Positions 9,227-11,318 of a DNA stretch of 40,810 nt are shown here, piece after piece. A model generated the notes under the pieces. That model worked only from the letters and a program-made list of their open reading frames with translations, was not told the origin of the DNA and did not search any database. Source of the stretch: Candidatus Halobonum tyrrellensis G22 (GTDB taxonomy: Archaea > Halobacteriota > Halobacteria > Halobacteriales > Haloferacaceae); NCBI RefSeq assembly GCF_000495475.1, contig NZ_ASGZ01000010.1, forward strand, positions 1 to 40,810. The letters run 5' to 3'. Every line of letters begins with the position of its first letter. Positions within the stretch are counted from its first letter, which is position 1. The position numbers and the translations under genes were made by a program.

Positions 9227-10327
9227 CTACCTCGGCGCGGCCCGCTGGTACTGGACGGGCCACTCGACCTCCGCGCCCAGTTCGTGGGCGGCGTGGAGCG
9301 GCCAGTACGGCGAGCGGAGGAACTCCCGCGCCATCAACACCGCGTCGGCGCGGCCGTTCGAGACGATGGCCTCCGCCTGCTGGGGTTCGGTGATGCCGCC
9401 GACGGACCCGACCAGGACGTCCGCGTCTTCCGCCTCGACGTGCTCTTTGATCGTCTCCGCGTACGGAAGCTGATAGTTCGGCCCGGCGTGTGGGAGCTGC
9501 TGGTCGGGCGAGATGCCGCCCGAACTCACGTCGACGAGGTCGGCGCCCGCCTCCGCGAGTAGGGGGGCGAGCCGCGCCGACTGGCCGACGTCCCACGACT
9601 CGCGGTCGTCGAGCCAGTCGGTCGCGGAGATGCGGACGAACACCGGCTTGTCGTCGGGCCACACCGACCGCACCGCGCCCGTCACCTCCCGGAGCAGGCG
9701 CGTGCGGTTCTCGAAGCTCCCGCCGTACTCGTCGTCGCGGTCGTTGGCGACGGGCGAGAGGAACTCGTGGAGGAGGTAGCCGTGGGCGGCGTGTACCTCG
9801 GCCACCTCGAACCCCGCGGCGAGCGCCCGCTCGGCGGCGTCCGCGAAGTCGGCGACCACGTCCTCTATCTCGCCGGTCGAGAGCGCACGCGTCGGCTGCT
9901 CGTCGCCGTCGCGCGGGTACGGCGTCCCGCTGGGTGCGACCGTCTCCCAGCCGCCCTCGTCGACCGGCACTGGGTCGCCACCGTCCCAGGGTCGTCCGGT
10001 CGACGCCTTCCGGCCGGCGTGTGCGAGTTGGATCGCCGGGACCGACCCCTGCGAGCGGACGAAGTCCGCGACCGGCGCGAGGGCGTCCGCCTGCTCGTCG
10101 TTCCAGATACCCAGGTCGTACGGCGTGATCCGCCCCTCGGGGGTGACCGCCGTCGCCTCCGCCATCACGAGTCCCGCGCCGCCGACCGCCCGCGAGCCGA
10201 GGTGGACGAGGTGCCAGTCGGTCGCCAGCCCGTCGGACGAGGAGTACTGGCACATCGGCGACACCATCACGCGGTTCGGTAGCTCCGTCCCGCGGATCGA
10301 CAGCGACGAGAACAACGTATCGACCAT
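9227..10327 (-). CDS. Old yellow enzyme family NADH:flavin oxidoreductase (YqjM-like)
   Basis: The 366-residue FMN-dependent ene-reductase has a TIM barrel of the YqjM/thermophilic-like subclass. That subclass is marked by Cys26 and Tyr28 in SPMCQYSS, which tune the flavin and contact substrate, and by the His pair H179/H182 in HAAHGYLLHEFLSP, which binds the carbonyl of enones. The phosphate-binding end is seen in VGSVGGI and RADAVLMAREFL. It reduces activated C=C bonds; the natural substrate is unknown and may be electrophilic stress products. I use the ATG at 10327; extra upstream residues to 10438 are Arg/Gly-rich. A weak TATA (CATTTACTC on the minus strand) lies near 10355. The gene is divergent from the microprotein at 10487. 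Confidence 0.92.
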   Translation of the reverse strand: MVDTLFSSLSIRGTELPNRVMVSPMCQYSSSDGLATDWHLVHLGSRAVGGAGLVMAEATAVTPEGRITPYDLGIWNDEQADALAPVADFVRSQGSVPAIQLAHAGRKASTGRPWDGGDPVPVDEGGWETVAPSGTPYPRDGDEQPTRALSTGEIEDVVADFADAAERALAAGFEVAEVHAAHGYLLHEFLSPVANDRDDEYGGSFENRTRLLREVTGAVRSVWPDDKPVFVRISATDWLDDRESWDVGQSARLAPLLAEAGADLVDVSSGGISPDQQLPHAGPNYQLPYAETIKEHVEAEDADVLVGSVGGITEPQQAEAIVSNGRADAVLMAREFLRSPYWPLHAAHELGAEVEWPVQYQRAAPR

Positions 10328-10437: not shown

Positions 10438-10453
10438 TTTAGGCAGACCAAAA
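10438..10453. promoter_or_regulatory. DtxR-like half-perfect inverted repeat, upstream site
   Basis: TTTAGG-CAGA-CCAAAA has the same 6-4-6 architecture as the downstream site, with one mismatch between the arms. It sits just before the TATA box of the microprotein gene. I read it as a second, weaker site for the same regulator. Confidence 0.4.
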
Positions 10454-10461
10454 GGTATAAG
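10454..10461 (+). promoter_or_regulatory. TATA box of the microprotein gene
   Basis: GGTATAAG is placed 26-33 bases before the ATG at 10487. It is flanked on both sides by 16-bp inverted repeats, so regulator binding would block TBP/TFB access or RNA polymerase. Confidence 0.55.
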
Positions 10462-10463
10462 CG

Positions 10464-10479
10464 ATTAGGTTGGCCTAAT
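10464..10479. promoter_or_regulatory. DtxR/SirR-like operator
   Basis: ATTAGG-TTGG-CCTAAT is a perfect 6-bp-arm inverted repeat lying between the TATA box and the predicted start site. It resembles the TTAGG...CCTAA core of DtxR/IdeR-family (iron or manganese) operators, which in haloarchaea are read by Idr1/Idr2/SirR-type repressors. Identity of the regulator is inference. Confidence 0.55.
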
Positions 10480-10486
10480 TCGGGTG

Positions 10487-10627
10487 ATGGCAGCCACGCA
10501 CGCCACCGACGAGGAGAGCCCGGCCGTCTCCGCCCACCGGACCTCGCCCGAGCGGACCGTGTTCACCGAGGACGGCAACGCCGACGGCTGGATCTCGACC
10601 GACCACACCGTCGTGCTCGTCGAGTAA
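10487..10627 (+). CDS. 46-residue microprotein (probably DUF7331 family)
   Basis: This short gene reads MAATHATDEESPAV, then RTVFTEDGNADGWISTD, and ends HTVVLVE before the TAA at 10625-10627. The central EDGN-DGWI-TD motif is one I associate with a conserved family of haloarchaeal small proteins (DUF7331, from memory). It is acidic with no cysteines and no membrane segment; function is unknown. A TATA box at 10454-10461 and two DtxR-like sites make the start secure and suggest metal-responsive control. Its neighbours are the old yellow enzyme (divergent) and DpsA ferritin (convergent). Confidence 0.8.
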   Translation: MAATHATDEESPAVSAHRTSPERTVFTEDGNADGWISTDHTVVLVE

Positions 10628-10766: not shown

Positions 10767-11318
10767 TTACCGGTCGAGCGCGCCCTCGAAGACGAGGCTG
10801 TCGTCCTCGAGGTAGTGCTCGATGTGGTGGGCGTCCTCTTCGACGTGGACGAGGTTCTCGCGGAGGATCTCCGCCGAAGTGGGGTCGCCGAGGTTGTCGC
10901 ACAACTCGACGTGCTCGCGGAGCGCCTCGATGATGTCGCCGTACATCTCGGCGTCGTGGCGGAACGAGGTGCGGATGTCGTACACGTCCTCGTCCTCGGG
11001 TTCGACGGGCGACGCCTCCTGGAGCGCGGCGGGACTGGCGTGCGGGACGCCGCCGATGGCCTGAACGCGCTCGGCGAGTTCGTCGGCGAACTCCTCGGCG
11101 TGTTCGGCCGCCTCGTCGAGGAACAGGTGAACGTCGCGGAACTCCGCGCCCTCGACGTTCCAGTGGTGCTTCCGCAGTTGGTGGTAGAGGACGTACGTCG
11201 CCGCCAGGTCGCTGTTGAGCGCGTCGACGACCTGCTCCGCGCGCTCGGCGTCGATCCGGAGCGTCTCGCTACCCGTCACTTCGCCCGCCTGTTTACGTAC
11301 CTCTCGTTGGGTGCTCAT
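10767..11318 (-). CDS. dpsA: DpsA, DNA-protecting iron-storing ferritin
   Basis: The 183-residue product matches haloarchaeal DpsA in length. It forms a dodecameric shell that oxidises Fe(II) with peroxide and stores the mineral, protecting DNA. The ferroxidase segment is visible: YHQLRKHHWNVEG (residues 45-57) followed by FRDVHLFLDEAAEHAEEFADEL (from residue 60). The C-terminal helix carries ENLVHVEEDAHHIEHYLEDD. I set the start at the ATG at 11318 because a strong TATA box lies about 27 bases upstream and the longer frame runs antisense through the next gene. It is convergent with the iron-regulator-like microprotein locus. Confidence 0.95.
   Translation of the reverse strand: MSTQREVRKQAGEVTGSETLRIDAERAEQVVDALNSDLAATYVLYHQLRKHHWNVEGAEFRDVHLFLDEAAEHAEEFADELAERVQAIGGVPHASPAALQEASPVEPEDEDVYDIRTSFRHDAEMYGDIIEALREHVELCDNLGDPTSAEILRENLVHVEEDAHHIEHYLEDDSLVFEGALDR

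Follow-up and report, generated by a model that had tools for sequence, protein, structure and literature searches.

A predicted iron-responsive double operator at the promoter of a haloarchaeal microprotein gene with ties to dpsA

The main finding of this work was a compact double operator, probably read by an iron-sensing regulator of the DtxR family, at the promoter of a gene for a 46-residue protein in a haloarchaeal genome of 3.68 Mb. The window, that is, the whole stretch of DNA that was analysed, is a contig of 40.8 kb from this genome. Taken as a whole, the explanation in which the double operator causes the microprotein to be made in iron starvation, and in which the protein is tied to DpsA, has in our estimate a probability of about 0.7. 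To our knowledge, little is understood about the retrieval of iron from archaeal Dps-type ferritins; a testable candidate for this task is the near-universal microprotein of haloarchaea, with its predicted repression by iron and its tendency to vanish along with DpsA. Judged from its promoter, the protein is probably produced when iron runs short, and it may act on stored iron. The family itself is unstudied. An initial annotation of the window had proposed a DtxR-like double operator and a role as a modulator of iron homeostasis, a reading which proved right in the main and to which we add evidence of conservation across the class, of a 26-bp architecture and of co-occurrence with DpsA. The features of the locus are as follows.

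9230-10327, reverse strand: gene for an OYE-type FMN oxidoreductase, divergent upstream neighbour of the microprotein gene
10439-10452, forward strand: predicted upstream operator TTAGGCAGACCAAA, an imperfect palindrome
10456-10461, forward strand: TATA box (TATAAG), with a T/A preference by position in 65 homologous promoters
10465-10478, forward strand: predicted downstream operator TTAGGTTGGCCTAA, a perfect TTAGGN4CCTAA ending 8 nt before the start codon
10487-10627, forward strand: microprotein gene, 46 aa (ATG at 10487, TAA at 10627)
10767-11318, reverse strand: dpsA, DNA starvation/stationary phase protection protein DpsA, ferritin-like, convergent neighbour

Architecture and conservation of the promoter

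Direct reading of the sequence confirmed the two repeats that had been described on either side of the TATA box. The downstream repeat (10464-10479, ATTAGGTTGGCCTAAT, ATTAGG-TTGG-CCTAAT) pairs at 6 of 6 arm positions, and the upstream one (10438-10453, TTTAGGCAGACCAAAA, TTTAGG-CAGA-CCAAAA) is imperfect, pairing at 5 of 6; from centre to centre they are 26 bp apart, and TATAAG lies between them. The distance of about 28 nt from TATA box to ATG implies a predicted leaderless transcript, so that, of the earlier placement of the downstream repeat between TATA box and start site, the first boundary was read and the second follows from this distance only. The 46-residue gene followed by convergent dpsA was also found as described, the latter being identified as an NF041388 equivalog (289 bits vs a cut-off of 170), and the two stop codons are about 140 bp apart. 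Within the window, the operator pattern has two matches with at most one mismatch vs 0.05 expected, and none of 100 shuffles had two.

The initial annotation had named the absence of the repeats upstream of orthologs in close relatives as evidence against its proposal, and the outcome was the opposite. An operator lies at the same place in 58 of 60 homologous promoters, drawn from 60 relatives, vs 0.16% of shuffled promoters; both sites are present in 19, the upstream site only in 13, the downstream site only in 26 and neither in two. The two siteless promoters belong to extra copies, and the other copy in those genomes has the site. Among 80 named haloarchaeal loci the operator occupies the same position in 77; in the remaining three a longer in-frame start was called, and the site probably falls inside the called ORF.

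The spacing is exactly 26 bp in all 19 homologous promoters with both sites; among the named loci, 28 have 26 bp, three have 27 bp and two have 17 bp, the last representing a different site pair. When the 60 genomes were searched strictly for double sites at 26 bp, 17 were found at homologs, one elsewhere and none with the reversed controls. Double operators elsewhere in these genomes mostly have a spacing of 34-37 bp, about one DNA turn longer; many of them (e.g., in G041, G048 and G013) are symmetric on both strands, which suggests divergent promoters. In relatives, the upstream operator of the microprotein gene reads TTAGGNNNACC(A/G)AAAC, and its right half is merged with a BRE-like AAAAC ahead of the TATA box. 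Because this right half is ACC(A/G)AAAC, and never CCTAA, in 65 promoters aligned on the site, we infer that the operator overlaps the BRE and that the repressor would be in competition with TFB for these bases.

The microprotein family and its tie to DpsA

The initial annotation had also proposed that haloarchaeal genomes be searched for homologs of the microprotein, and these were found in 55 of the 60 relatives and, across the haloarchaeal class, in 276 of 292 genomes and 75 of 77 genera; among the genomes sampled outside the class there were none. The proteins are 46-66 residues long, W35 is invariant and V25, F26, E28, N31, D33, I36 and D39 are almost so. Judged from a codon comparison with automatic start calls and non-independent pairs, the homologs are under purifying selection (median pairwise dN/dS 0.41, with 98.8% of pairs below 1). 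The predicted structure is a three-strand beta sheet over residues 14-38, at moderate confidence (pLDDT 75.7, pTM 0.45). Fold searches of the PDB and of viral models gave no match below E 0.4, a sequence profile search of the PDB with the microprotein reached only E 0.92, and the protein shows no evident metal-binding or catalytic residue. A zinc-finger or ferredoxin-like protein was considered and rejected, since the window protein has no cysteine and none is conserved, let alone invariant, among the homologs.

A convergent dpsA lies at most 600 bp away at 40 of the 60 homologs, with gaps of 0-450 bp, and at 43 of the 80 named loci. In about one third of the genomes dpsA is not a neighbour; in Halorubrum it is not adjacent and the OYE-type upstream neighbour is kept instead, as it is in many genomes. 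This variable neighbourhood, most clearly in Halorubrum, would suit an iron-repressed microprotein that makes no contact with DpsA and has an iron-sparing or regulatory role elsewhere, with the DtxR protein or iron enzymes as its target, for instance, its linkage to dpsA being inherited gene order. Such a role would also suit four genomes of a single genus (G170, G184, G194 and G291; loci L176-L180) that keep DpsA and have no microprotein; no operator site or signature was found beside DpsA in these four.

The joint distribution of the two genes points in the other direction. DpsA, scored as present on a full match (best E 3e-54 or better in the microprotein genomes), occurs in all 85 tested genomes with the microprotein vs 4 of 17 without it, the 17 being 16 that lack it and one (G045) with a weak hit only. 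The association has a Fisher p of 2.5e-13, uncorrected for kinship and with a second batch of genomes picked largely from sister groups. Genomes without DpsA are spread over several families, and both genes were lost together within the genera g28, g47, g51 and g76, whose sister species keep both; moreover, both genes are jointly present also in genomes where they are unlinked. These co-losses and the joint presence of unlinked genes argue for a functional tie to DpsA and against mere inheritance of gene order. A single deletion of two linked genes could contribute to the co-losses. A microprotein without DpsA contact is in our view a serious possibility, on the less probable side, and the co-occurrence with DpsA lends indirect support to the proposal of a modulator of iron homeostasis.

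A common operator at dpsA itself was also considered and discarded: only 10 of 47 dps promoters have a site that matches at 9 or more of 10 positions, and the dpsA promoter of the window has none. Near-operators at dps promoters were noted at L133, L149, L117, L103, L108, L109, L118, L125, L126 and L140. Tandem dps-like genes occur in G002, G029, G119, G212 and G297, the extra copies being 38-43% identical to the DpsA of the window.

Predicted regulon, metal and mechanism

The TTAGG...CCTAA core had been attributed to DtxR-family regulators, and this attribution was supported. The IdeR/DtxR box has been redefined as the 14-bp TTAGGNNNNCCTAA, bound by one dimer (PMC8464063), and the window operators carry the same pattern. 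Two DtxR-family genes of the genome are candidates for the regulator: one encodes a 231-aa protein with three domains (DNA-binding, dimerisation and FeoA), whose nearest solved structures are of the DtxR/IdeR/SloR type, and the other a 150-aa protein with two domains.

Pattern searches of the genome found 11 exact copies of TTAGGN4CCTAA vs one for the reversed control pattern, and a weaker excess, 25 sites vs 16, when one mismatch was allowed; several of the one-mismatch sites sit 35-36 bp from another site. Most of the exact copies stop 5-8 nt short of a start codon, chiefly those of genes for siderophore-type ABC binding proteins. Iron-uptake genes of the same genome are among those preceded by the operator: behind exact sites and near-matches stand seven genes for Peripla_BP_2 lipoproteins, which are siderophore-type binding proteins (two of the seven score under Pfam's cut-off), along with genes for a DUF5059-plastocyanin protein and single Gluconate_2-dh3 and RGP genes, and one double site precedes an apparent operon of reductase, permease and ATPase (ABC), read from translation only. 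This set looks like an iron-siderophore regulon, and DtxR-type iron regulation of the microprotein promoter is, at the level of prediction, strongly supported. In one region (L005, G000:C2:45125-54086) the same operator precedes a cluster with several genes for binding proteins and an operon for an ABC permease/ATPase, with a site at C2:54073, and at L008 2671-5169 (G000:C5:155670 onward) an 833-aa DUF5059 plus plastocyanin-type protein lies behind a 35-bp double site.

Of the two metals that the initial annotation had allowed, iron is the better supported and manganese the less. A regulator that senses manganese in the manner of MntR or SirR, with the microprotein gene in a manganese regulon, would agree with the MntR model being the top NCBIfam match of both DtxR-family proteins, under its cut-off in each case (226 bits of the required 350 for the three-domain regulator). 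We consider it unlikely, because the operator precedes the seven siderophore-type genes, which are the main group among those sharing it, and because the site equals the IdeR/DtxR iron box.

We hypothesize that an iron-sensing repressor of the DtxR family controls the promoter at 10439-10486 through a compact double operator, of which one dimer site flanks the TATA box on its BRE side and the other falls between TATA box and start codon. When iron is plentiful, TFB/TBP and RNA polymerase would be shut out by the bound repressor, since dimer sites 26 bp apart lie on both sides of the TATA box; when iron is scarce, the repressor would leave, and a leaderless mRNA for the 46-residue beta-sheet protein would be produced alongside the siderophore-uptake regulon. 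The microprotein would then act together with DpsA, either by restraining iron storage or by promoting the release of stored iron, a step that we put forward tentatively, at somewhat less than an even chance. Iron deficiency lowers DpsA in Halobacterium salinarum (PMC3600143), which is opposite to the direction that the operator predicts for the microprotein; this pattern resembles that of a starvation factor acting on a store. The opposite regulation, together with the convergent gene order and the short gaps, would also fit a transcript that is itself the useful product, lowering DpsA as a low-iron antisense into dpsA with the short ORF secondary, but the strong conservation of the protein (W35, N31, D33, E28), a dN/dS of about 0.4 and retention of the gene where dpsA lies elsewhere make this very improbable, even more so than a manganese regulon. 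The reading in full, of a class-wide family that is a dedicated, starvation-induced, non-ferredoxin partner of DpsA with its promoter locked by a 26-bp, BRE-fused double operator, is possible, though we lean against asserting it in every part.

Comparison with known systems

The microprotein family appears to be distantly related to PF24018/DUF7331, since 43 of 47 homologs match this model at E ≤0.1 (best 3.7e-7) over the same C-terminal two-thirds. Membership was rejected for the window protein, which scores 17.1 bits (E 0.008) where the curated cut-off is 27; the genome encodes a true DUF7331 paralog at another locus, which does not figure among the operator sites found. A literature search on DUF7331 and HVO_0536/0537 gave nothing useful.

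Bfd, the bacterioferritin-associated ferredoxin, is a small iron-starvation protein encoded beside a ferritin gene, with a proposed role in iron release, and it holds an iron-sulphur cluster via cysteines. The microprotein gene also lies beside a ferritin-family gene, the convergent dpsA, but the window protein is without cysteine ligands. Closer in lineage are the haloarchaeal DtxR regulators cited in PMC11349517, Idr1 and Idr2 of Halobacterium and Idr, SirR and TroR of Haloferax volcanii, which share with the system proposed here the organism class, the regulator family and a part in iron homeostasis. The likeness to bacterial IdeR/DtxR extends to an identical consensus, one dimer per palindrome and an iron-uptake regulon (PMC8464063). 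In contrast, the sites described here are predicted ones on an archaeal TATA/BRE promoter, and there are two of them, 26 bp apart around the TATA box, in place of one overlapping 19-bp box. If true, the 26-bp double operator over BRE and TATA box would clearly illustrate the adaptation of an iron repressor of bacterial type to an archaeal promoter.
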